From: Sycon ciliatum
Taxonomy: Eukaryota; Porifera; Calcarea; Leucosolenida; Sycettidae
NCBI RefSeq assembly: GCF_964019385.1
Contig: NC_088645.1
Location: forward strand, 45,137,529 to 45,201,528
Direction of reading: 5' to 3'
Length of the DNA: 64,000 nucleotides
In this document: positions 27,822-63,423 of the stretch, one piece after another
Numbering within the stretch: the first letter of the stretch is position 1
How the letters are laid out: the number at the start of each line of letters is the position of its first letter
Position numbers and translations under genes: made by a program
Notes under the pieces: model-generated
What the model saw: the letters and a program-made list of their open reading frames with translations, nothing else
Told to the model about the DNA's origin: nothing
Database searches by the model: none

Positions 27822-28934
27822 GTGATGTGGAATGACCTCTCGTGGAAATCCCTTTTGTACGGTGGTACTGGTAAGGATTTGAACTTTCTTCTCGCGTCAA
27901 CCCTGGACGTTCTACCTTCTCCGACGAGCCTACGACGTTAGGGAAACATGGTAATGGATCCGTAGTGTAGTTTGTGCCGTGCCTGGGCCTGTACCACGCA
28001 TCACATGGGTTGGTGGTTGGTGGGTTGTGTTTATTTGAATTCGCAAACCGAACGGACTGAACATGTCCAATGACAAGGAAGCGAATGAAGTCCAAATAAC
28101 CCAGGAATGGGGACACAGATGAAAAGAAAATATGGGAACAGAAGGCTCTCAGCAAAGGAAGAGGAGAAAGGAAGGAAAGAAAAAGAATAATGGAGAAGAA
28201 GAAGAAAAATCGTGGTCACGGCGAGAAGAAAGCTTTTAGCAAAAAGAGAAAGGAAAGGATGAAGGTGAAAATGGGGAGACACATCGTGGTCACGGCCAAA
28301 GCCGGAGTACCGGCAGGACACAGTAGACATAACAACACCAGGAACAAGCACGCATGAAGCATGGGCCATGCTTGGCGCTTGTCGCAATACCAAAGGACCA
28401 ACTGTTTGCTTCCGCGTTATTGTACCGTCCAAACAGCTCTGCTGGCGATATACTGGGCGAATGGCGCGGGGCCTCCCAGCGCGTCAGCGGCAGTGGGTGA
28501 TGGGCACAATGACATGAGGACAAGGTAGCTTGCGGACAACATTGGTGGGATGAAGCCTAGTAACTGCCAAGATTCTTGGCGCGACGGAGGAGCAGTACAG
28601 TGTCATGCCACAGGGGCTGCTGTGGCTGTCGACATCGGCGGGCCGTGAGTTGCGTTCACAGGCCTTCATGGCGCTCGGACAACTACAATACACAGACTTT
28701 CACTAGCTACACAGTACACTGTACACTGATTCTGGCGCGTTATTTCTGTATTGATAGTCATAATGATTGATTTTTCGAGCCGAATTTCCGACGCTGCATG
28801 CATGTCTAGTGCGCACCAACAGTACTTCACACTTTCCTTTTCCCGCGTTATCACCTCAGCTATGCCAGTTTTGTATGTGGAAACCCCCTATAAAATAGCA
28901 GTTTGGTCTAAATCTTTTTATCATTCAACATCTA

Positions 28935-28978
28935 CCTTCACTGATGAGCTATGTGTTAGCGAAACAGCTGTCTGGAGG
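28935..28978 (+). ncRNA. Type I hammerhead ribozyme, single copy (class C)
   Basis: The core CTGATGAG (28941-28948), a stem II of GCTA/TAGC with loop TGTGT, and CGAAAC (28960-28965) lead to AGCTGTC, with predicted cleavage after C28972 (GTC). Stem I strands CCTTCA (28935-28940) and TGGAGG (28973-28978) pair fully with one G-T wobble. Stem III is the minimal self-complementary ACAGCTGT, as in many animal retrozyme and Penelope-like hammerheads thought to act as dimers. Flanking sequence does not match the two tandem families below, and no second copy is seen in the window. All invariant core bases are present. Confidence 0.75.
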
Positions 28979-29390
28979 AATTATCAATATCGTCTACGGA
29001 ATTGTCCTCGCAATGGTGATGGTTGTGGGCAGGAGGGTCTAGTCGGCTAAACTGCGGAGTGTGATGGTGGAGGTGACTCAACATTTATATATATATATAT
29101 ATATTATTGTAGTTAGAAAAGTTGCCTGACGATTGAAAAACTCAAGAAACTCGGAGTAGCAACGGATTGTGTTTTCTTGGTGAGGACCGCTTCCATTGTA
29201 TATATATTATTGAGTATTTCGCTCCTGCTCTTGTAGCAGTTGAGCACTCTTGCGTGGGGTAGTGCTTTTGCTGTTTGCGTGATGCAGAGCTCACTGACTT
29301 GTCAGTTTGAGCACTCTTGCAAGGTACGTTCGGGCCTGATTGGAAATTTTTATTTCCATTGCTATCAGGTTCGGCCTCATTTCCTCTGTG

Positions 29391-29439
29391 CTGCGCTGAT
29401 GAGTTCAAAAAGAACGAAACCTGAGCACGCTGTCCGCAG
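29391..29439 (+). ncRNA. Hammerhead ribozyme A1
   Basis: CTGCG / CTGATGAG / stem II GTTC-AAAAA-GAAC / CGAAAC / cleavage after GTC at 29434 / CGCAG. Stem I CTGCG-CGCAG is perfect. Stem III is altered by a short insertion (CCTGAGCACGCTG), so this copy may be slower or inactive. Confidence 0.75.
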
Positions 29440-29621
29440 ATTGAGTATTTCGCTCCTGCTCTTGTAGCAGTTGAGCACTCTTGCGTGGGGTAGTGCCTTT
29501 GCTGTTTGCGTGATGCAGAGCTCACTGACTTGTCAGTTTGAGCACTCTGGCAAGGTACGTTCGGGCCTGATTGGAAATTTTTATTTCCATTGCTATCAGG
29601 TTCGGCCTCATTTCCTCTGTG

Positions 29622-29667
29622 CTGCGCTGATGAGTTCAAAAAGAACGAAACAGCACGCTGTCCGCAG
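29622..29667 (+). ncRNA. Hammerhead ribozyme A2, canonical
   Basis: Core CTGATGAG (29627-29634) and CGAAAC, stem II GTTC/GAAC with loop AAAAA, stem III ACAG-CACG-CTGT, cleavage after C29662, stem I CTGCG (29622-29626) with CGCAG (29663-29667). All conserved positions are present. Confidence 0.88.
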
Positions 29668-29849
29668 ATTGAGTATTTCGCTCCTGCTCTTGTAGCAGTT
29701 GAGCACTCTTGCGTGGGGTAGTGCCTTTGCTGTTTGCGTGATGCAGAGCTCACTGACTTGTCAGTTTGAGCACTCTGGCAAGGTACGTTCGGGCCTGATT
29801 GGAAATTTTTATTTCCATTGCTATCAGGTTCGGCCTCATTTCCTCTGTG

Positions 29850-29895
29850 CTGCGCTGATGAGTTCAAAAAGAACGAAACAGCACGCTGTCCGCAG
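29850..29895 (+). ncRNA. Hammerhead ribozyme A3, canonical
   Basis: Same structure as A2; stem I CTGCG (29850-29854) with CGCAG (29891-29895), cleavage after C29890. It closes the array; the following sequence (ATTGAGTATATGGGCC) leaves the repeat after about ten bases. Confidence 0.88.
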
Positions 29896-30061
29896 ATTGA
29901 GTATATGGGCCAGTGCATGCGAAAACGTGTCTTCGGGGGAAACCGATTTCTTTCAGAATTTTGAGAAAATCGCTCGGAAAGAAGAGTTATTTTTTTGTGG
30001 CTCGACCGCGGATCTTGTCTACTCGATCTCAAGACGACAAGAGAAGCGACCGACAAGCGAT

Positions 30062-31311
30062 CATCATGGACGTGGCGGCGCAGGAGGAGTTGGAATTAGC
30101 ACTTGAGGAAGGGCCTCTGAGTAGACACACTCGTGGCAGACGCCGAGCAGCACGCCGGTTGAGCTGTACCGCTCGCGTGATTATCGTCGGCGCGTCCGAA
30201 GAGATCGGCAAGGTTTATTATCGAGGAGGAAGACGACAATTTATTTGGCGAGTCGTGAGTCGGAGCAGTCAGCAACTAGCAGCTGTTCTGCTCACAGTGA
30301 CTCTGACGAAGCCCCAGCTAAGCGTCCGGGAGTGAAAGACTCCTGTGTTGAGGTTGAAGGCGAGTCGAGAGCGGATGAATTAGGCGGAGATTCTGTGGCC
30401 TCTGGAAGCGACGATGTTCAGGACGCGCTTCAGAGCATTGCCGCTGTGGACTGACTGGTTCTTGAAGGCTGTGGCTGCGTTCGGAACTACCATTTCAGCA
30501 GCTTCACGTCGAGCGCAATCCTCCATTACGACGACTAAATCTCGGCGATGAAATCGAAGGACCTCGGCATTTTTTTATATTTGTGCGCTGGCTGCGCTGC
30601 ACGCGTGACGATCCTATCGACTGTCGTGCATCAGTCGACAGCTTCCGCAACGGAAAGGACGCGCATCACGTTTGGATACACTGTGATGGGACACATCGTG
30701 TGTCGAACCGCGTTTATGCAGCTCCATGTGGTTGGCAGAATATGACTGTCTGCAAGTGGACAAGGAGAACATTAGCTGTGACCCTGGTGCACATGGAAAG
30801 CTGGCAATGTGCCTTGGAATAAATTTACTGCAGAATTGGGAGACAGAGCGCAGCAGTTTATTCTGAATAGACTGAACTACAGCTTAGTGTTCGGTCTCCC
30901 TTTGTCTGTTGCACCAAAAGGGAGAGGTGAGGAATCTCCCATGAAACTCACCTACATCCATCGCCTACAAGTTTGTCCTTTCTGAACATGTGGAGCAGTC
31001 TGGTGAAGCGCAAACCCTGGGTTACCATATTTTGTTTGTATCTGTGGACTAAGAAGTGCAAGTCCATCGTGTTCACGACGCAACGGATGGATGTGTTCAA
31101 CAAGTGTGCGCTGCTCCGGGACGATATTTGTTCTCCTCGTGCAGAGGATGAAAAGAAGTCTGCAACGGAACCACTCCGTGACCATGTTGTCTTTGCACAA
31201 AAGGAACGCGAGTTCTTGTTAGGTCAACGCTGCAAGAATTTGCTGGACAATGTTGCCCGGTTTTGTCTGGATAACAAGGCAGCCTTCATTGAATGTCTTG
31301 GCCAATACTAA
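30062..31311 (+). pseudogene. Decayed transposon protein gene (uncharacterised integrase/transposase type)
   Basis: Several plus-strand frames in succession: an acidic, Ser-rich N-terminal region (30245-30451, containing CSAHSDSDEAPAKRP), then RTRITFGYTVMGHIVCRTAF (30548-30745), and later FNKCALLRDDICSPRAEDEK then LRDHVVFAQKEREFLLGQR (30973-31308). The arrangement [R-x-R-x-x-Y-x-x-x-G-x-x-VC-x-x-AF] followed by a [K-C-x-x-x...EK...H-x-x-x-A-x-x-E-R] block is known to me from multi-copy, integrase-like proteins of cnidarians, molluscs and sponges. Frameshifts and missing middle parts show decay. It lies between two hammerhead arrays, but nothing links it to them functionally. Confidence 0.4.
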
Positions 31312-31920
31312 AGGCTTATACGCAAAACTGTTGCTGCTTTCAGCGACGCTGTAGATAATGCATTATACAAGGCATATTCCATGTTGGACAATGCCATAGA
31401 AATCATGGTCTCTATGTACTTTCAAATGTGATATCCAGCTTCATCTTCCACAGAGTTGTTCTCTAGACCCCAGTGATTGATTTTCAAGAAAGAAAAAAAA
31501 TTCCAAAAATTTGCCCTTAGACACGGTATTGCATGCACTGGCCCATATATATATATTATATTATGCGCACAGATTCACACTGGAGGCGCTGTACATTCGC
31601 AGTTTGAGGCCAGAGCTGTGTCGACAAAAGAAGCACATCAAGGTGCTGCGGCTGTTCAAGCTGCAACCGGACTGACAACTTTATCACGTGTTTGTTCTGG
31701 TACTGCATTCCCTTCATGTGTTGTTTCCCGCATTTTTCCACTGCTCCATACATTCTTATGGTAGTGTAGTGTGAACTTGAGGCGCGTAAGAATATTCTTG
31801 CTGATTCTCTACCCCAGTATAAATTCTGGCTTCGTTTTCGTTCTTGCTCATTCCCATGTACCTACTGATGAAAATGGGTGAAAAGCTTTTAGTGTTATGA
31901 AACTTACAACCTTGTTGTTG
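31312..31920. other. Gene-free interval
   Basis: AT-rich, with a TATATATATATTATATTATG tract at 31545-31565. No exon or ribozyme passes inspection; a CTGATGA at about 31866 lacks a stem II. Confidence 0.4.
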
Positions 31921-32395
31921 TGTGTATATTATATAATAATATATAGAGAGAGAGAGAGAGCGAAACAGTTGCTCTCCACAGATTTGAGCATTATTGCTCC
32001 CTAGTAGCCAGCAATGTCGTTAGGTTGAGCACTCTTACCTTAGCGCGAACCCTTGCCGCTCGCCTTGTGCAACGTTCACTGCTCCTGGTGCATTTCAAGT
32101 ACTCTAGGCGGGGTTGGCAGGTCTTTATAAAAATGCTTTGCTTCACGGAACCGTATTTCATTGCGAAGAGCTGCGCTTCGGTCCTCTGAGCTGTGCTGAG
32201 GAGCTCTAACAGAGCGAAACAGTTGCTGCCCACAGATTTGAGTATTATGCTCCCTAGCAGCCAGCAATGTCGTTAGGTTGAGCACTCTTACCTTAGCGCA
32301 AACCCTTACCGCTCGCCATGTGCAACGCTCACTGCTCTTGGAGCATTTCGAGCACTTTTGGCGGGGTTCAGGGCCAGCAATCGAGGACATCTGAG
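31921..32395 (+). mobile_element. Retrozyme-like array, family B (about 254-nt unit)
   Basis: After a TA/GA simple repeat (31921-31960) comes the 3' half of a hammerhead (CGAAACAGTTGCTCTC|CACAG, predicted cleavage after 31976), a full unit (31977-32230, 254 nt) ending in a hammerhead, then a partial second unit (32231 to about 32395). Units share TTTGAGCATTATTGCTCCCT and TGTCGTTAGGTTGAGCACTC. Stem sequences and unit bodies differ from family A, although a GAGCACTCTTGC/CTTACC-type word occurs in both. A further partial copy lies at 38085-38208. Confidence 0.75.
32191..32235 (+). ncRNA. Hammerhead ribozyme B1 (CTGAGGA core variant)
   Basis: CTGTG (32191-32195) and CACAG (32231-32235) form stem I. 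The core is CTGAGGAG, and position 7 of the CUGANGA core is tolerant. Stem II is GCTC-TAACA-GAGC; CGAAAC is intact. Stem III ACAG-TTG-CTGC ends in CC rather than TC, changing the U of the cleavage triplet, so activity is doubtful. Confidence 0.65.
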
Positions 32396-32618
32396 AGTTG
32401 TAATTTTTGTACTCCTCCGAGGTGTGATTTTTGGCGTGCTGGGCCAAGCACAAGGAAGTCATCTGCAAAAAAACTGCAGAAAATGGTTGTTGTTTGATCC
32501 TTTGGTGTAATCTTTGTTTCTAGTCGAAGCTAGTTGCTGTTTGGAGCAGAAACGCTGAAATTGACTATTTTCTGCATGTACTCATACATGTACTCATGTA
32601 CTCAGGCATGCAGTCTCA

Positions 32619-32922
32619 TGATGTATTCATGTAATGAATTCAGTTTAGCGTAGGCGCACATCTCGCAACTACGTATCTGCTGCGCTACAGCGCCCTCTAC
32701 GGTTCTGGCCGCGGCACTTGTTTAGCGCGCCTTGCCGCGACCGGCAAGACCGCCTGCTGTGCATCACATTAATTTATGCGTACGCCATCACAATAATTAA
32801 TTCAGTTTTGATCGGGTCCGAGTCCGCAACGTGGCACATCTCCTTGCCATTCTCAGTTTTGAGTCTTCTCTGCTTTGGCTCATGCCCGACTTGCATCCTG
32901 CTGCCTTTGTCTTTTGCTGACC
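32619..32922 (+). repeat. Ngaro split direct repeat A1
   Basis: 304 bp starting TGATGTATTCATG and ending TTTTGCTGACC; matches A2 at 36917-37220. Acts as the 5' leader and probably carries the promoter. Confidence 0.92.
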
Positions 32923-32941
32923 GAACTGTCATTGCCTAGTC

Positions 32942-33940
32942 ATGTCGGGCACCAGGAAGAGAACCCGTCGCGCAGCACCTAGCCCTGTTCCCGACCCACC
33001 TGTTTCTTCGGCTGCGGACCCCGAGCTGCCGAGTAACGCTGCCTCACCACTCGACGGCGGACAATTCAAGCAATTTATATCTGACGAAGTCCAGAAAGCC
33101 GTCACCGCCGCCCTGGCAGAAACGGTCTCCCCACTGCTTGCCACCATCGGATCCTCGCAGCCTTCCCCCGCCATGGCCGTACCCACCGGAAATGCTGCGC
33201 CAACTGGTCCGGGTGCTGGCTCTCTATCTCATCCACTGAACGTGCCGTCTCACGTGAGAGAGAGGATTTTGCGAGGTGAGTGTGTTGATTTGAATACACT
33301 GTTACCGGAAGCTCTTGGGGCACCAAAGCGTGACACGATTCAGTTGAATTTCAGTGGGTCCAGGACTGTTGAGCTGCTGGATCCCAGCTCTGGCGGGCAT
33401 GTCGAGAAAGTTCGTAGGCATGTTCACGACCTGGTTACATGGCTAGAAGCCTGGTCCAGATATATGTTCGTACTATGCTCGCACGCACCCAGCCGTTTCT
33501 CCGAACTGATGGCATATCAGGCCACCATTGTATCGGCCAACTCCTCATACTATCCGGAGGCCTGGCTCGAATATGACCGGGAGTTCCGTCTGGCAATCTC
33601 TCTTGACCCCAGTAAGCGTTGGGACGCCATTGACGGCAATCTCTGGCAACTGAAAATGACAGGCCGCTCACGCCCGCAGTGTAGCACATGCCGGATCACT
33701 CACCCTCCATCGGGTAGCCAGTGCCCTTTTCGTGCCTCCCGAGTACCAAACCAGCAGTTTGCACCACGGTCTGCCTACACCAAGTCTGGCAAAGAGATCT
33801 GCCGGAATTTCCAGCAAGGTCGATGCTCCAACACCGACTGTAAATTTGCCCACGTCTGCTCCCAATGTGAGGGCGCACATGCCCGCCCCTCCTGCCCGCG
33901 TCGCTTCTCCACTGGCAACCAGCGGCAGAACAAAGCTTAA
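32942..33940 (+). CDS. gag: Ngaro Gag-like protein with CCCH and CCHC zinc fingers (332 aa)
   Basis: The first ATG after A1 opens 332 codons. The N-terminal 100 residues are Pro/Ser/Ala-rich. The middle (about 130-230) holds a helical segment with LVTWLEAWSRYMFVLCSHAP then AYQATIVSANSSYYPEAWL. Near the end CRNFQQGRCSNTDCKFAHVC is a CCCH finger (C-x7-C-x4-C-x3-H) followed by CSQCEGAHARPSC (C-x2-C-x3-H-x4-C). This is the RNA-binding structural protein that packages the element RNA. The last 209 nt overlap the start of the RT ORF in another frame (+1 relative to gag), so RT is made by frameshifting or by internal or re-initiation. No frame damage is seen. Confidence 0.85.
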   Translation: MSGTRKRTRRAAPSPVPDPPVSSAADPELPSNAASPLDGGQFKQFISDEVQKAVTAALAETVSPLLATIGSSQPSPAMAVPTGNAAPTGPGAGSLSHPLNVPSHVRERILRGECVDLNTLLPEALGAPKRDTIQLNFSGSRTVELLDPSSGGHVEKVRRHVHDLVTWLEAWSRYMFVLCSHAPSRFSELMAYQATIVSANSSYYPEAWLEYDREFRLAISLDPSKRWDAIDGNLWQLKMTGRSRPQCSTCRITHPPSGSQCPFRASRVPNQQFAPRSAYTKSGKEICRNFQQGRCSNTDCKFAHVCSQCEGAHARPSCPRRFSTGNQRQNKA

Positions 33941-35552
33941 TGAACTGCATCTCGATAGTAGCATTCTCCGGACACACCCTACATTCTTTCACACTTGCCG
34001 CACACCTATTCACGTTAATCGCCTCCGTTCCTTACTGCGTGCACACCCCGATCAAGCTTTTGTTAAATATGTACTTCATGGCCTTACGTATGGTTTTGAC
34101 ATCGGCTTCAATGGCCCACGCCAAAGCAGCATGTTCTCCCCTAACTTACCTTCTGCGAGGATGCATCCCGATTTTATTACCAAATACCTGCAAGAATGTT
34201 GCTCCCGCTTTGAACTGCTAGGTCCTTTTTCCTCCTCGCTTTTTCCTTTTTTTCATTGCTCCGGTGTTGGCTGCGTTCCGAAAAAGAACGGCCGCTTTCG
34301 TTTAATCCACCATCTCTCTAGCCCAGAGGGTCAAAGTGTTAACGATGGAATTTCACGTGAAGATTTCAGCTTGCATTACATCACTATTGATCACGCGATC
34401 GATGCCATTATGCAGTACGGTCGTTCTGCTTATCTTTTCAAACTTGACATTCGGAGTGCTTTCCGCATTGTACCTGTGCGGCAGGAAGACTGGCCTCTGC
34501 TAGGTATTCACTGGCAAAACCAATATTATTTCGACACTGTGCTCCCCTTTGGCTTACGCTCCAGCCCTGCCATTTTTAACTCTATTGCCGACTGCCTTGA
34601 ATGGATTGCTCGCTATGAGTTTTCTATTACTGACCTGCTCCATTATCTAGATGATTTCCTTTGCATTTCTCCATCGGAGCTGGTGGCGAACCAACGTGCT
34701 TCAATCCTGCTTCGCTGTTTTAACTATGTCCAAGTCCCCTTGGCACCTGACAAAGTGGAAGGTCCAGCTCAAGTGCTGTCGTTCCTGGGCATCGAGCTGG
34801 ACTGTGGCAGACTGGAGGCCCGGCTACCAGACACCAAGTTGCAAGATCTCCGCACCTTGCTCGACCAGTATGTCAACCGTGGCGACATGACCCAACGCGA
34901 ACTCGACTCACTATTGGGAAAACTCTCCTTCGCAGCTCGGGTAATTATACCTGGTCGGACATTCATGCGCCGACTCTGGGATATTTGTCACCGCTACAGT
35001 CAGCCACACTATAAGATCAAACTCTCAGTCGAGGCCCTGGAAGACCTGAAGTGGTGGCAACGCCTCCTCTCGCAATGGAACGGAAAGTCCTTCTTTCATA
35101 TGCCAAATTGGACCCCGTCTCCCGACATCCAATTGTTTACCGATGCCAGCGGTTCGATCGGCTGGGGCGCATGTTATGGCCATCGCTGGATCCAGGGACA
35201 GTGGTTGCCGGAACAAGCCGACTACTCCATCGAGTGGAAGGAGATGTTCGCCATTGCCGCAGCTTGCTCCTCCTGGGGCCTTGAATGGCGCAAGCTCCGC
35301 ATACTCGTGTACTGCGATAACGAAGCCGTAGTGGCATGCCTGTCCAATGGTTGTAGCCGCTCCCCCCCAGTCATGGACCTGATACGACGGCTGTTCTTCA
35401 TGTGCGCTAACTTTGGCTTCATTCTGTCAGCAAAGCATATTCCAGGATGCACTAACAAAGCCGCTGATGCTCTGTCTCGTTTTAACATGCAGGCGTTTCG
35501 CGAGGCGGTTCCGGGAGCTCGGGCGACAGCCGACCTGTTCCAGTCATTCTAA
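33732..35552 (+). CDS. pol: Ngaro reverse transcriptase / RNase H (606 aa)
   Basis: The open frame contains a full RT: KLDIRSAFRIVPV (catalytic Asp at about residue 239), LPFGLRSSPAIF, and YLDDF (305-309, the two catalytic Asps). RNase H follows: FTDASGSIGWGA (Asp about 471), SIEWKEM (Glu about 502), YCDNEAVV (about 529) and NKAADALSRF (about 579). All key residues are present. The first about 70 codons overlap gag and may not be used; the true start is uncertain. The protein copies element RNA into DNA and removes the RNA strand. It overlaps the recombinase frame by about 65 nt at its 3' end. Confidence 0.88.
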   Translation: MPPEYQTSSLHHGLPTPSLAKRSAGISSKVDAPTPTVNLPTSAPNVRAHMPAPPARVASPLATSGRTKLNELHLDSSILRTHPTFFHTCRTPIHVNRLRSLLRAHPDQAFVKYVLHGLTYGFDIGFNGPRQSSMFSPNLPSARMHPDFITKYLQECCSRFELLGPFSSSLFPFFHCSGVGCVPKKNGRFRLIHHLSSPEGQSVNDGISREDFSLHYITIDHAIDAIMQYGRSAYLFKLDIRSAFRIVPVRQEDWPLLGIHWQNQYYFDTVLPFGLRSSPAIFNSIADCLEWIARYEFSITDLLHYLDDFLCISPSELVANQRASILLRCFNYVQVPLAPDKVEGPAQVLSFLGIELDCGRLEARLPDTKLQDLRTLLDQYVNRGDMTQRELDSLLGKLSFAARVIIPGRTFMRRLWDICHRYSQPHYKIKLSVEALEDLKWWQRLLSQWNGKSFFHMPNWTPSPDIQLFTDASGSIGWGACYGHRWIQGQWLPEQADYSIEWKEMFAIAAACSSWGLEWRKLRILVYCDNEAVVACLSNGCSRSPPVMDLIRRLFFMCANFGFILSAKHIPGCTNKAADALSRFNMQAFREAVPGARATADLFQSF

Positions 35553-36496
35553 CTGCCGCGGACGAATTAGCAGCACGATATGCTGCTCACGCTCTATCCG
35601 ACAACACCAGACGAACGTATTCCGCCGGCGAATCTAAGTATCTCAAGTTCTGCCAACTTCAAAGATGGTCCCCGTTTCCCGCTTCAGACCTAATGCTGAG
35701 TAGTTTTGCTGCCTCCCTAACCCAGTCGGTCAGACCAGTGACTATTAAGGTTTACCTCAGTGCTATCAAGAACCTGCACCTGGAGCTCGGTTATGTCGAC
35801 CCGACCGAGGGCGCGCACTTCCTCAAGCGAGTGGTACGCGGTATTTGCCGTTGCCATGGAGTAGCCGCTGTCCGCCCCCGGCTGCCAATCACGTTTCCTA
35901 TTCTCTGCAGTCTGGTTGACACCTGCCTAGCTGCTCCAGCCATGTGCCCTCACGACAAGCGCTGCCTGCATGCCGCTATGCTTGCCGTGTTCTTTGGTTT
36001 CTTCAGATGCGGTGAACTGCTAGAAGCACCTACCACGCGCGGCTGTTTGACATTCGAGTCAGGGATGCTCCATGTGCACCTACCACGCTCGAAGACAGAC
36101 CCGTCCGGGGAAGGTACGACGGTGCTGATCGGGCCAGCGGTGCCGCCATACTGCGCTGTGAGAGCCATGCTCACCTACCTCACTGCAACCGCCTCTGCTC
36201 GTCCAGGCAGTGCTGTGTTCATCCTGGCCAACGGGCAACGCCTCAACCACAGCACTTTTACAGCCCACGTACGCACGCTGCTTAGCACCAGCGGCGTGGC
36301 AAACTGGCAGGACTATGCAGGCCACAGCTTCCGTATCGGGGCCGCTACCACTGCTGCCCTTGCTGGCGTCCCCGACCACCAGATCCGCTCCGCGGGACGG
36401 TGGCGCAGTGATGCATGCCTACGCTACATCCGGACACCACCGTCATCGGCCCGAACGCTGGCCAGCAAACTATCCTCAGTAAGATCATCTCCCTGA
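35486..36496 (+). CDS. Ngaro tyrosine recombinase
   Basis: The frame is open from 35486, and the first ATG is only at 35693. The upstream residues (AADELAARYAAHALSDNTRR then TYSAGESKYLKFC) look like the conserved N-terminal SAM-like core-binding region, so translation most likely begins before that ATG, by -1 frameshift or re-initiation from the RT frame it overlaps. Catalytic-domain landmarks: FFGFFRCGELL (first Arg), SKTDPSGEG (the beta-hairpin Lys), HSFRIGAAT (His and second Arg), GRWRSDACLRYIR (Trp in place of the second His, Tyr nucleophile). The enzyme inserts the circular DNA intermediate without target duplication. Confidence 0.88.
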   Translation, partial: HAGVSRGGSGSSGDSRPVPVILTAADELAARYAAHALSDNTRRTYSAGESKYLKFCQLQRWSPFPASDLMLSSFAASLTQSVRPVTIKVYLSAIKNLHLELGYVDPTEGAHFLKRVVRGICRCHGVAAVRPRLPITFPILCSLVDTCLAAPAMCPHDKRCLHAAMLAVFFGFFRCGELLEAPTTRGCLTFESGMLHVHLPRSKTDPSGEGTTVLIGPAVPPYCAVRAMLTYLTATASARPGSAVFILANGQRLNHSTFTAHVRTLLSTSGVANWQDYAGHSFRIGAATTAALAGVPDHQIRSAGRWRSDACLRYIRTPPSSARTLASKLSSVRSSP

Positions 36497-36588
36497 CACC
36501 GATGTTTCTCAATTCACACAATTCCCTCATAATGAACTATGCTATGCTGCACTGCAATACTGTTGTGTATGGGTATGTACTGGCGGTA

Positions 36589-36916
36589 TGGCGAGTCACT
36601 CATAACTGGTCTGCCTTTCTATTGCGGCATTATGGCCTTATGGTCCTGCCTTTCCATTGCGGCAATCACAGCCTCCGGGCTTCTGCCTTCCTGCGGCAAT
36701 CACAGCCTCCGGGCTTCTGCCTTTCTGCGGCACTCGCAGCCTCACGGGCTCGTGCCTACCTTGCGGCAAAGACCAACCAGTTCCTCGTCACCAGTACTTA
36801 CCCAACACAACCTAGCCTTATTCGTGTGGTGTATGCCTGTCTGCATGCCGTCTGTGTGCGCGGAATGCTAATGATGTATGCCTGCCTGCATGCCGTCTGC
36901 GTGCGCGGAATGCTAA
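36589..36916 (+). repeat. Ngaro split direct repeat B1
   Basis: 328 bp, same as B2 at 37287-37614 by reading. Internally repetitive (two TGCATGCCGTCTG units, three TGCGGCAATCACAGCCTCC-type units). Ends ATGCTAA. Confidence 0.92.
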
Positions 36917-37220
36917 TGATGTATTCATGTAATGAATTCAGTTTAGCGTAGGCGCACATCTCGCAACTACGTATCTGCTGCGCTACAGCGCCCTCTACGG
37001 TTCTGGCCGCGGCACTTGTTTAGCGCGCCTTGCCGCGACCGGCAAGACCGCCTGCTGTGCATCACATTAATTTATGCGTACGCCATCACAATAATTAATT
37101 CAGTTTTGATCGGGTCCGAGTCCGCAACGTGGCACATCTCCTTGCCATTCTCAGTTTTGAGTCTTCTCTGCTTTGGCTCATGCCCGACTTGCATCCTGCT
37201 GCCTTTGTCTTTTGCTGACC
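36917..37220 (+). repeat. Ngaro split direct repeat A2
   Basis: 304 bp, matches A1. Immediately abuts B1. Confidence 0.92.
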
Positions 37221-37286
37221 CACCATCCCACCACTAACCATTAATACTACATTGCATCATTCCTACTTCAAGTACAATAAACCTGG
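37221..37286 (+). terminator. Spacer with polyadenylation-like signal between A2 and B2
   Basis: 66 bp unique to this position, containing ACAATAAACC (about 37275-37284), a possible AATAAA signal for the element transcript. Confidence 0.4.
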
Positions 37287-37614
37287 TGGCGAGTCACTCA
37301 TAACTGGTCTGCCTTTCTATTGCGGCATTATGGCCTTATGGTCCTGCCTTTCCATTGCGGCAATCACAGCCTCCGGGCTTCTGCCTTCCTGCGGCAATCA
37401 CAGCCTCCGGGCTTCTGCCTTTCTGCGGCACTCGCAGCCTCACGGGCTCGTGCCTACCTTGCGGCAAAGACCAACCAGTTCCTCGTCACCAGTACTTACC
37501 CAACACAACCTAGCCTTATTCGTGTGGTGTATGCCTGTCTGCATGCCGTCTGTGTGCGCGGAATGCTAATGATGTATGCCTGCCTGCATGCCGTCTGCGT
37601 GCGCGGAATGCTAA
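37287..37614 (+). repeat. Ngaro split direct repeat B2 (right end)
   Basis: 328 bp, ends ATGCTAA at the element boundary. Confidence 0.92.
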
Positions 37615-38084: not shown

Positions 38085-38208
38085 TATGTGCAGCTCTTTA
38101 TAAAAATGGTTTGCTTCACGGAAACGTATTTCATTGCGAAGAGCTGCGCTTCGGTCCTCTGATCTGTGCTGAGGAGCTCTAACAGAGCAAAACAGTTGCT
38201 GTCCACAG
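38085..38208 (+). mobile_element. Retrozyme family B partial unit with hammerhead (G12 mutated)
   Basis: The 3' half of a family B unit (CTTTATAAAAATGGTTTGC onward) ends with stem I CTGTG (38164-38168), core CTGAGGAG, stem II GCTC-TAACA-GAGC, then CAAAAC where CGAAAC is required, stem III ACAG-TTG-CTGT, TC and CACAG. The G-to-A change in the invariant GAAA should abolish cleavage although every stem is intact. Confidence 0.7.
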
Positions 38209-38246: not shown

Positions 38247-38493
38247 GTCCTGTCCGCAGATGGAGTATTTTGCTCCTGCTCTTGTAGCAGTTGAGCAATC
38301 TTGCATGGGGTAGTGCCTTTTCTGTTTGCGTTATGCAGAGCTCACTGACTTGTCAGTTTGAGCACTTTGGCAAGGTACGTTGGGGCCTGGTTTAAATCTG
38401 GGGTTGGAAAATTTATTTTTCATTGTTATCAGGTTCGGCCTCATTTCCTCTGTGCTGTGCTGATGAGTCCACAAAGGACGAAACAGTCCGCAG
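38247..38493 (+). mobile_element. Retrozyme family A unit (234 nt) with stem-III-deleted hammerhead
   Basis: Starts in mid-hammerhead (CCTGTC|CGCAGA, cleavage position after 38254) after a GA/TA simple repeat and runs 38255-38488 to a second hammerhead: CTGTG, CTGATGAG, stem II GTCC-ACAAA-GGAC, CGAAAC, then AGTC|CGCAG. About seven bases of stem III are missing. The stem II base changes relative to 29.6 kb are compensatory (GTTC/GAAC became GTCC/GGAC), showing past selection on the fold. Confidence 0.75.
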
Positions 38494-38518
38494 ATTGAGT
38501 ATAATTATATATATATTC

Positions 38519-39685: not shown

Positions 39686-39760
39686 GTTACACCATAGCTC
39701 GGTGGTTAGAGCATCGCTGGTTACAAGCGAAGGTCCCTGGTTCGAGTCCTGGTGGTGACA
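39686..39760 (+). repeat. tRNA-like sequence / SINE head (degenerate)
   Basis: A D-arm (GCTC-GGTGGTTA-GAGC), a perfect 5-bp anticodon stem (TCGCT/AGCGA) and a T-arm with GGTTCGAGTCC (B box) are spaced as in a tRNA. The 3' acceptor GGTGGTGACA pairs with ACACCA only if two extra bases are looped out at the 5' side, and base 33 is not T. More likely a tRNA-derived SINE or pseudogene than a working tRNA. The minus-strand sequence does not improve it. Confidence 0.45.
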
Positions 39761-60925: not shown

Positions 60926-60932
60926 TGTACGA

Positions 60933-63423
60933 CGGGGCATTGATGACGGGGCATTGATGACGGGGCATTGATGACGGGGCATTGATGACGGGGCATTGAT
61001 GACGGGGCATTGATGACGGGGCATTGATGACGAGGCATTGATGACGGGGCATTGATGACGGGGCATTGATGACGGGGCATTGATGATGGGGCATTGATGA
61101 CGAGGCATTGATGATGGGGCATTGATGACGAGGCATTGATGATGGGGCATTGATGACGGGGCATTGATGACGGAGGCATTGATGACGGGGCATTGATGAC
61201 GGGGCATTGATGACGGGGCATTGATGACGGGGCATTGATGACGGGGCATTGATGACGGGGCATTGATGACGGGGCATTGATGACGGGGCATTGATGACGG
61301 GGCATTGATGACGGGGCATTGATGACGGGGCATTGATGACGGGGCATTGATGACGGGGCATTGATGACGGGGCATTGATGACGGGGCATTGATGACGGGG
61401 CATTGATGACGGGGCATTGATGACGGGGCATTGATGACGAGGCATTGATGACGAGGCATTGATGACGGGGCATTGATGACGGGGCATTGATGACGGGGCA
61501 TTGATGACGGGGCATTGATGACGAGGCATTGATGACGAGGCATTGATGACGGGGCATTGATGACGGGGCATTGATGACGGGGCATTGATGACGGGGCATT
61601 GATGACGGGGCATTGATGACGGGGCATTGATGACGAGGCATTGATGACGAGGCATTGATGACGGGGCATTGATGACGGGGCATTGATGACGGGGCATTGA
61701 TGACGGGGCATTGATGACGGGGCATTGATGACGGGGCATTGATGACGGGGCATTGATGACGGGGCATTGATGACGGGGCATTGATGACGCGGCATTGATG
61801 ACGGGGCATTGATGACGAGGCATTGATGACGGGGCATTGATGACGGGGCATTGATGACGGGGCATTGATGACGGGGCATTGATGACGGGGCATTGATGAC
61901 GGGGCATTGATGACGAGGCATTGATGACGAGGCATTGATGACGGGGCATTGATGACGGGGCATTGATGACGGGGCATTGATGACGGGGCATTGATGACGA
62001 GGCATTGATGACGAGGCATTGATGACGGGGCATTGATGACGGGGCATTGATGACGGGGCATTGATGACGGGGCATTGATGACGGGGCATTGATGACGGGG
62101 CATTGATGACGAGGCATTGATGACGAGGCATTGATGACGGGGCATTGATGACGGGGCATTGATGACGGGGCATTGATGACGGGGCATTGATGACGGGGCA
62201 TTGATGACGGGGCATTGATGACGGGGCATTGATGACGGGGCATTGATGACGGGGCATTGATGACGCGGCATTGATGACGGGGCATTGATGACGAGGCATT
62301 GATGACGAGGCATTGATGACGGGGCATTGATGACGGGGCATTGATGACGAGGCATTGATGACGCGGCATTGATGACGGGGCATTGATGACGGGGCATTGA
62401 TGACGAGGCATTGATGACGAGGCATTGATGACGGGGCATTGATGACGGGGCATTGATGACGGGGCATTGATGACGGGGCATTGATGACGGGGCATTGATG
62501 ACGGGGCATTGATGACGAGGCATTGATGACGAGGCATTGATGACGGGGCATTGATGACGGGGCATTGATGACGAGGCATTGATGACGCGGCATTGATGAC
62601 GGGGCATTGATGACGGGGCATTGATGACGAGGCATTGATGACGAGGCATTGATGACGGGGCATTGATGACGGGGCATTGATGACGGGGCATTGATGACGG
62701 GGCATTGATGACGGGGCATTGATGACGCGGCATTGATGACGGGGCATTGATGACGGGGCATTGATGACGAGGCATTGATGACGAGGCATTGATGACGGGG
62801 CATTGATGACGGGGCATTGATGACGAGGCATTGATGACGCGGCATTGATGACGGGGCATTGATGACGGGGCATTGATGACGAGGCATTGATGACGGGGCA
62901 TTGATGACGGGGCATTGATGACGGGGCATTGATGACGGGGCATTGATGACGGGGCATTGATGACGGGGCATTGATGACGCGGCATTGATGACGGGGCATT
63001 GATGACGGGGCATTGATGACGAGGCATTGATGACGAGGCATTGATGACGGGGCATTGATGACGGGGCATTGATGACGAGGCATTGATGACGCGGCATTGA
63101 TGACGGGGCATTGATGACGGGGCATTGATGACGAGGCATTGATGACGAGGCATTGATGACGGGGCATTGATGACGGGGCATTGATGACGGGGCATTGATG
63201 ACGGGGCATTGATGACGAGGCATTGATGACGAGGCATTGATGACGGGGCATTGATGACGGGGCATTGATGACGAGGCATTGATGACGAGGCATTGATGAC
63301 GGGGCATTGATGACGGGGCATTGATGACGGGGCATTGATGATGGGGCATTGATGACGGGGCATTGATGACGGGGCATTGATGACGAGGCATTGATGACGA
63401 GGCATTGATGACGAGGCATTGAT
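60933..63423. repeat. 2.5-kb satellite of a 14-bp unit, about 178 copies, with higher-order pattern
   Basis: Unit GACGGGGCATTGAT with three common variants: GACGAGG, GACGCGG and GATGGGG at the start of the unit. One 15-bp unit (GACGGAGGCATTGAT, about 61167) shifts phase. The variant pair GACGAGG+GACGCGG recurs at about 62347, 62571, 62823 and 63075, i.e. 16 then 18 then 18 units apart (224, 252, 252 bp). This shows amplification of blocks of about 252 bp. Since 14 is not a multiple of three and the unit lacks stops in any minus frame, all three minus frames stay open for more than 830 codons and read the same 14-residue peptide; this is not evidence for a protein. Confidence 0.95.

Follow-up and report, generated by a model that had tools for sequence, protein, structure and literature searches.

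Non-LTR retrozymes of metazoans carry type I hammerhead ribozymes (HHRs) in units of 150–450 bp, with units of about 220–245 bp in Acropora millepora (Cervera and de la Pena 2020, PMC7229834). For the enzyme that mobilises animal retrozymes, and for RNA circles as its template, the published accounts cited here offer proposals only (PMC7229834, PMC7761336). Two Penelope-like elements (PLEs) are also relevant. The purified PLE of Anolis, PAc, cuts AT-rich DNA and starts RT at internal sites past the HHR, the main start site lying at 111–118 of the ORF and the HHR cut at 26 (PMC11167929), and Penelope of Adineta presents inverted pLTRs with a 31-bp tail on one arm (PMC3846280). In the open-licence literature, searched by title and abstract opening, we found no report of fixed insertion ends of animal retrozymes and no report of retrozymes in calcareous sponges.

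We analysed an array of 228-nt units in the calcareous sponge Sycon ciliatum, located in a stretch of 64,000 nt (C3:45137529-45201528 of a 538-Mb assembly; hereafter, the window). Its family resembles metazoan retrozymes in presenting a type I HHR, short tandem units, no visible LTR, a GC content <50%, and coexisting PLEs (PMC7229834); the host is different, the likeness is one of description rather than of compared sequences, and insertion ends are analysed here. Plant LTR retrozymes are likewise self-cleaving, non-autonomous tandem elements (PMC4918200), self-cleavage being predicted for the focal family, but they carry type III HHRs, LTRs, PBS/PPT, and 4-bp duplications (PMC7229834, PMC7761336), whereas the focal family has type I HHRs and no LTR. 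With HHR-bearing PLEs the focal element has in common a putative internal RT start past the HHR, an AT-rich target, and short target duplications (PMC11167929, PMC3846280); unlike Anolis PAc, it is non-coding, has one end site 10–13 nt past the cut, and rarely forms inverted arms (PMC11167929). We put at roughly two in three the probability that the focal array derives from a non-autonomous animal retrozyme, as a copy inserted by a route of cutting, circularisation, and internal RT, probably by means of a PLE enzyme. The new part, and the one worth following, is the insertion-end signature of the retrozyme copies; ends of this kind, at a fixed site across the ribozyme junction, turn template and enzyme into a question testable in any genome and suggest a concrete in vitro assay.

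The focal array and its hammerhead family

The sequence-only reading had described three tandem type I HHRs in repeats of about 228 nt, and this was borne out, with the span of the array adjusted to 29209–29903 (Table 1); Tandem Repeats Finder gave a period of 228 with 3.0 copies and 98% matches across 29209–29904. The cuts fall after 29434, 29662, and 29890, as that reading had predicted, and the two cut-to-cut units are both 228 nt long and do not differ in sequence. Exact copies of the core, CTGATGAG...CGAAAC, stand at 29396, 29627, and 29855. The stems that it had assigned (I, CTGCG/CGCAG; II, GTTC/GAAC; III, ACAG/CTGT; cleavage triplet GTC) hold in A2 and A3 but not throughout A1, where stem III is interrupted. 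A1 differs from A2 and A3 at two substituted positions and by three extra nucleotides (CTG) in stem III, so that it is not equivalent to them; its ribozyme is probably impaired, in keeping with the sequence-only reading, to which A2 and A3 appeared fully competent. GC content is 46.8% in A1 and 49.1% in A2 and A3. The 0.7 kb of 228-nt units contains no RT or endonuclease ORF; a 317-codon antisense frame is simply the repeat read on the other strand. No LTR-like terminal repeat was seen in the focal element apart from the tandem units.

Table 1. Annotated features of the window (positions count from its first nucleotide).
Feature	Position	Strand	Remarks
Another HHR-bearing repeat, at least in part	28600..29086	+	HHR 28936-28977; 89% identical to L016; ends at (TA)n
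5'-truncated PLE end piece	29110..29198	+	minimal HHR 29121-29163 (by eye); 40-nt tail ending ..CGCTTCCATTG, then (TA)n
Focal retrozyme array	29209..29903	+	5'-truncated A1, full A2 and A3, 13-nt tail beyond last predicted cut site
Unit A1	29209..29434	+	226 nt; stem III with 3-nt insertion
HHR of A1	29391..29439	+	3-nt insertion in stem III
Unit A2	29435..29662	+	228 nt cut-to-cut
HHR of A2	29622..29667	+	intact core positions
Unit A3	29663..29890	+	identical to A2, 228 nt
HHR of A3	29850..29895	+	intact core positions
Tail CGCAGATTGAGTA past cut site	29891..29903	+	family's fixed 3' end, inferred RT start
DNA transposon-like insert	29906..31545	.	1.64 kb; 15-bp inverted ends; TA on both sides; in (TA)n right after the array
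Second PLE type, 3' part (ORF end and downstream)	31565..31929	+	matches L065 1734-2098
HHR of related degenerate family	32191..32235	+	CTGAGGAG core
Second HHR of degenerate CTGAGGAG-core family	38164..38208	+	
Second focal-family copy	38250..38501	+	stem II GTCC/GGAC; stem III lost; 3' end ..CGCAGATTGAGTA, then TA-rich

Five matches to the core pattern were found in the window, as compared to 0 in 100 dinucleotide shuffles. An Rfam covariance-model check, which had been proposed along with the original claim, was only partly favourable: all three motifs were matched by clan models, the best being Hammerhead_HH9 (28.2, 27.9, and 25.4 bits; E 2e-4 to 2e-3). All scores, though, fell under the curated gathering score of 52, and a default Rfam scan of the whole window had no hammerhead among its results. 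Energy folding of the isolated 46-nt motif, tried as support for the ribozyme, was uninformative, showing no unusual stability (z = -0.89). Support for the ribozyme comes from covariation of the stems, not from energy. When the type I structure was imposed on 17 aligned HHRs, picked by eye to span families among the window and loci fetched from the same genome, 97.8% of cells were paired, versus 70.5% in shuffles and 23–47% in slid controls, a percentage flattered by the omission of types with unreadable stems (L013/L036, L015, and the second motif of L038). Changes on both sides of a pair were present in 53 cells of this alignment versus 15.4 in shuffles, and each of the five pairs of stem I shows such a change in some sequence of the set. 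Within the focal family, stem II alternates between GTTC/GAAC and GTCC/GGAC, and 72 of the 80 motif matches counted in fetched DNA carry an outer helix I, CTC/GAG. The stem III loop CACG is common to all three focal units; elsewhere it was seen in 2 fetched units, versus 44 with CATG and 37 with TT. On this comparative evidence, the focal motif is a predicted type I HHR with covarying stems.

Genome-wide, the copy count that the sequence-only reading had called for gave 3,589 focal-subfamily matches versus 0 for the reversed pattern, and the exact HHR-core pattern gave 13,627 matches versus 63 for its reverse; a 32-nt HHR pattern had 0 exact matches in two contig collections, one viral and one prokaryotic. 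The first 100 focal matches on C1 fall in 69 separate arrays, 52 of them with a single matched unit, and 28 of the 31 spacings <400 nt among these listed matches are 226 or 228 nt. Units differ by 0.6% on average within 13 clean multi-unit arrays (L006, L008, and L068, each spanning several insertions, being excluded) and by 3.4% between arrays, a contrast for which 0 of 2,000 permutations were as low. Zero unit differences in six of these 13 arrays support recent activity, as the original description of an active or recently active retrozyme family had proposed, and the identification as a retrozyme stood up on the covarying type I HHR, the 228-nt tandem units, the GC content of 49%, the 3,589 matches, and the end repeats of 8–16 bp (15/31; see below). 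These observations support the focal family as a real, recently active family of animal (non-LTR) retrozymes, and as a probable new member of a known group.

Insertion ends and the template of the copies

We aligned 53 placements to the unit, taken from the window (two), L002, L005–L009, L014, L017, and L039–L078, the last making up 40 of some 68 loci represented among the first 100 focal-subfamily matches; the alignment gave 54 rows, of which the second piece of the L005 array was left out. Four loci (L040, L044, L047, and L074, a copy of L073) duplicate other insertions. The 3′ end lies at CGCAGATTGA(GTA), 10–13 nt beyond the ribozyme cut, in 50 of the 53 placements (46/49 without recognised duplicates); in the focal array, this distance is 13 nt, from the last cut site to 29903. 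Three placements depart from this pattern: L068 is interrupted by another insert, L070 has its end at phase 33, and L041 runs from the cut site to phase 218. The L041 unit (1307-1537), a related one, begins precisely at the ribozyme cut and stops within the ribozyme; its flanks carry a matching repeat, and it may represent a cut, linear monomer that was inserted. At L068 (1781-3073), the insert that splits the retrozyme array has inverted-looking ends, CAGGGGCGTC...

The tail motif CTGTCCGCAGATTGAG continues exactly into a further unit in 1,753 of its 4,422 copies genome-wide, and in fetched DNA continuation past the tail was found in 47/92 cases (51%) versus 57/62, 69/71, and 46/49 (92–97%) at three control places. 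The 5′ ends, on the other hand, are scattered over the unit (KS against uniform, p = 0.26, with six ends at phase 136 included that are alignment breaks at a variant internal segment). Of 45 such ends, a single one (L005) falls no more than 3 nt from the cut, and it is itself an alignment break inside an array.

Exact end repeats of 8–16 bp, exceeding 4 bp as target duplications of animal non-LTR retrozymes do, flank 15 of the 31 placements with non-simple flanks, repeats of ≥8 bp being present in 0.5% of mismatched pairs; they often share a terminal T(A/G) with the element. An 8-bp end repeat is absent from the other 16 of the 31, and 15 further placements lie in simple, mostly AT-rich repeats; the focal copy's own flank, (TA)n, is too simple for end repeats to be judged. 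The counts of end repeats and 5′ ends left out the L049 placements (TA flanks) and scored L070 as fixed, and the end-repeat count includes L074, the copy of L073. Flanks are 76% AT in the first 10 nt, as compared to 56% at 30–40 nt, and are often (TA)n.

Since the copies end beyond TGTC, where a self-cut RNA would stop, the junction of the template RNA must have been intact, in a ligated circle or an uncut molecule; and since the 3′ end past the cut is fixed, RT would have started at a fixed internal site on such junction-intact RNA. From the copy ends we infer cleavage and circular RNA in the focal family. In the cycle that we propose, a transcript of tandem units would be cut by its own type I HHRs, and the 228-nt monomer would be circularised by a host RNA ligase; an RT, most likely that of a resident PLE, would nick an AT-rich target, often a TA repeat, and copying would begin at the fixed internal site 10–13 nt beyond the ribozyme junction. 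The RT would then make less than one, one, or several rounds of the circle and halt at a variable point, so that the product would be a 5′-truncated array flanked by short target duplications.

An uncut linear multimer with an internal start would leave identical ends, and an alternative, which we regard as doubtful, is therefore that the template was an uncut or partly cut linear multimer, read through from an older array, on which RT used the same internal start and copied several neighbouring units. The near-identity of units within an array favours repeated copying of a single unit, and units are far more similar within than between arrays, with zero difference in 6/13, which counts against a multimer. 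The difference between A1 and A2 = A3 in the focal array can be read in favour of a multimer, but the three A1-specific forms are absent from the other fetched loci and so look post-insertional. A multimer is favoured by L005, which mixes two stem III subtypes in one array, so that not every array can come from one circle; this locus argues that some of the templates were multimers, or that there was later recombination. A multimer is also favoured by Anolis, in which HHR-dead RNA was inserted like wild type and unprocessed RNA was the main template in vitro (PMC11167929). That the units are ordinary satellite DNA, arising by unequal crossing-over or by rolling-circle DNA amplification with the HHR as a passenger, is highly improbable: tandem structure and near-identical neighbouring units would fit, but the first 100 C1 matches are spread over 69 separate arrays (52 with one matched unit), the 3′ end is fixed while the 5′ ends vary, end repeats occur in 15/31, and the ribozyme stems covary.

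Penelope-like elements and the mobilising enzyme

The PLE end piece in the window sits 10 nt before the retrozyme array. Its HHR motif has 95 copies in the genome, and the end piece presents 98–100% identity among the 45 matches listed. We examined 25 ends of this PLE (L079–L098, two each in L065 and L008, plus the window). Twenty-one have their end at ..CCATTG, 40 nt beyond the cut, and are followed by TA-initial sequence in 20 cases and by TG in one (L095). In the remaining four, the end lies ~67 nt farther on, at ..CCCCCT(G), and TA- or AT-repeat sequence follows. A run-on into the ORF was considered for these longer ends and rejected, as they stop at a second fixed site instead; the two fixed sites, ~67 nt apart, are illustrated by L096 and L098 along with L106, L065, and L008. 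Also rejected was an end at the PLE's own GGATTG, corresponding to the retrozyme end, since 83 of the 95 copies continue past it and the remaining 12 include tandem variants. On C4 (42049491-42051734), five PLE HHR motifs stand at an exact spacing of 556 nt, a retrozyme-like tandem of the PLE terminal region.

A full PLE copy at L106 has one end of each kind, outward-facing, on inverted arms of 1.8 kb that are 99.9% identical, and a 714-codon open frame overlaps one arm. Of the 7,999 scored, 2,111 are homologues of this frame, including P0141, which has a precomputed GIY-YIG domain. Two PLE relatives, P0016 (60% identity, 66% of the query covered) and P0229 (51% identity, 82% covered), carry identifiers (scpid/scgid) in a style used for Sycon ciliatum. 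The L106 frame matches the ORF at L002 (54%) and not those at L065, and the assignment of the L065 ORFs to the PLE with the tail at 29110–29198 was accordingly rejected; the L065 ORFs are identified as PLE-derived through the homologues P0063 and P0112. Pfam and PDB searches (PDB with the L065 RT) gave no GIY-YIG and no curated-level RT family in the L065 ORFs, Pfam gave no family in the L002 or L106 ORFs, and PDB gave none for L106; because of these results, PLE identity rests on the homologues.

The focal element shares with the PLE insertion ends at a fixed internal site past the HHR and an AT-rich target, and the tails of the two face each other over one (TA)n at L065, L008, and L093; the tails themselves have only short motifs in common. 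This PLE therefore appears, by analogy, to be the best candidate mobiliser of the focal retrozyme. By its sequence, the focal element behaves like a PLE product and is not a member of the PLEs, as it has no RT/GIY-YIG ORF. The rarity of outward inverted arms in the focal family counts against the PLE as mobiliser. The PLE family is outward-facing and inverted in 22 of 29 close pairs, and in the twin PLE copies with both ends seen (L106, L065, and L008) each fixed site is used by one arm (3/3); among 33 focal close pairs from the first 100 C1 matches, 31 are on the same strand, mainly as units of one array, two face inward, and none faces outward. A clean head-to-head focal twin, with both ends at the usual site, is present at L105, while an outward focal pair at L104 gives the impression of two separate insertions into a TATG repeat.

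This one-sidedness (0 outward among the 33 close pairs), together with the 8–16 bp end repeats, is what would be expected if LINE-type machinery rather than a PLE had copied an RNA with a natural 3′ end at ..GATTGAG from that end; if the natural 3′ end of the RNA lay exactly at ..GATTGAGTA, ordinary 3′-end priming would suffice. We consider such an origin unlikely, as it requires a 3′ end 10–13 nt beyond a ribozyme that would cut it off, and as internal initiation is described as unique to PLEs in the Anolis report (PMC11167929).

Twin arrays of other hammerhead families and neighbouring elements

Three HHR families, with units of 591, 352, and 480 nt, occur as twin tandem arrays that face outward, at L026–L031 (C1:844030-848687), L099, L101–L103, L010, L020, L025, and L037. 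In 10/10 clear twins, one arm ends near a site A and the other near a site B, at phases of about 514/545, 241/279, and 143/187 in the 591-, 352-, and 480-nt families, respectively; an eleventh twin (L100) is ambiguous, and diverged single-arm copies (L024, L033, and L038) end at phases 96–109, off both sites. The offset of 31–45 nt between A and B recalls the 31-bp tail of Adineta Penelope (PMC3846280). End repeats are informative at the twins L037, L099, and L025; five of the 11 twins lie in low-complexity flanks, and L010, L020, and L100 are without end repeats.

A wider reading, to which we give even odds, is that animal retrozymes are rolling-circle, target-primed RT products of PLE machinery. 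In the focal family, the start would be fixed at the base of the extended helix I (CTC/GAG), 10–13 nt downstream of the ligation scar, and the rule of a fixed internal start would be common to several HHR families of one genome; in the 352-, 480-, and 591-nt families and in the resident PLE, both target strands would be primed, giving outward twins whose two arms start at different sites, A and B.

RT fragments with a YADD motif lie beside the 480- and 591-nt families (L021 3-476, minus strand; L037 1567-2070, plus strand) and are 39% alike; 19 of 29 candidates are homologues of the L021 fragment, and the C-terminus looks LINE-like by eye. Elsewhere in the window, a tyrosine-recombinase retrotransposon with RT and phage-integrase domains occupies 32615–37614 and has split direct repeats (32615-32922/36913-37220 and 36589-36916/37287-37614). 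A tRNA-like sequence at 39690–39757, over the Rfam score, is possibly a tRNA gene or the head of a SINE, and a 14-bp satellite, GACGGGGCATTGAT, is present at 60931–63423 in 178 copies with 97% matches.
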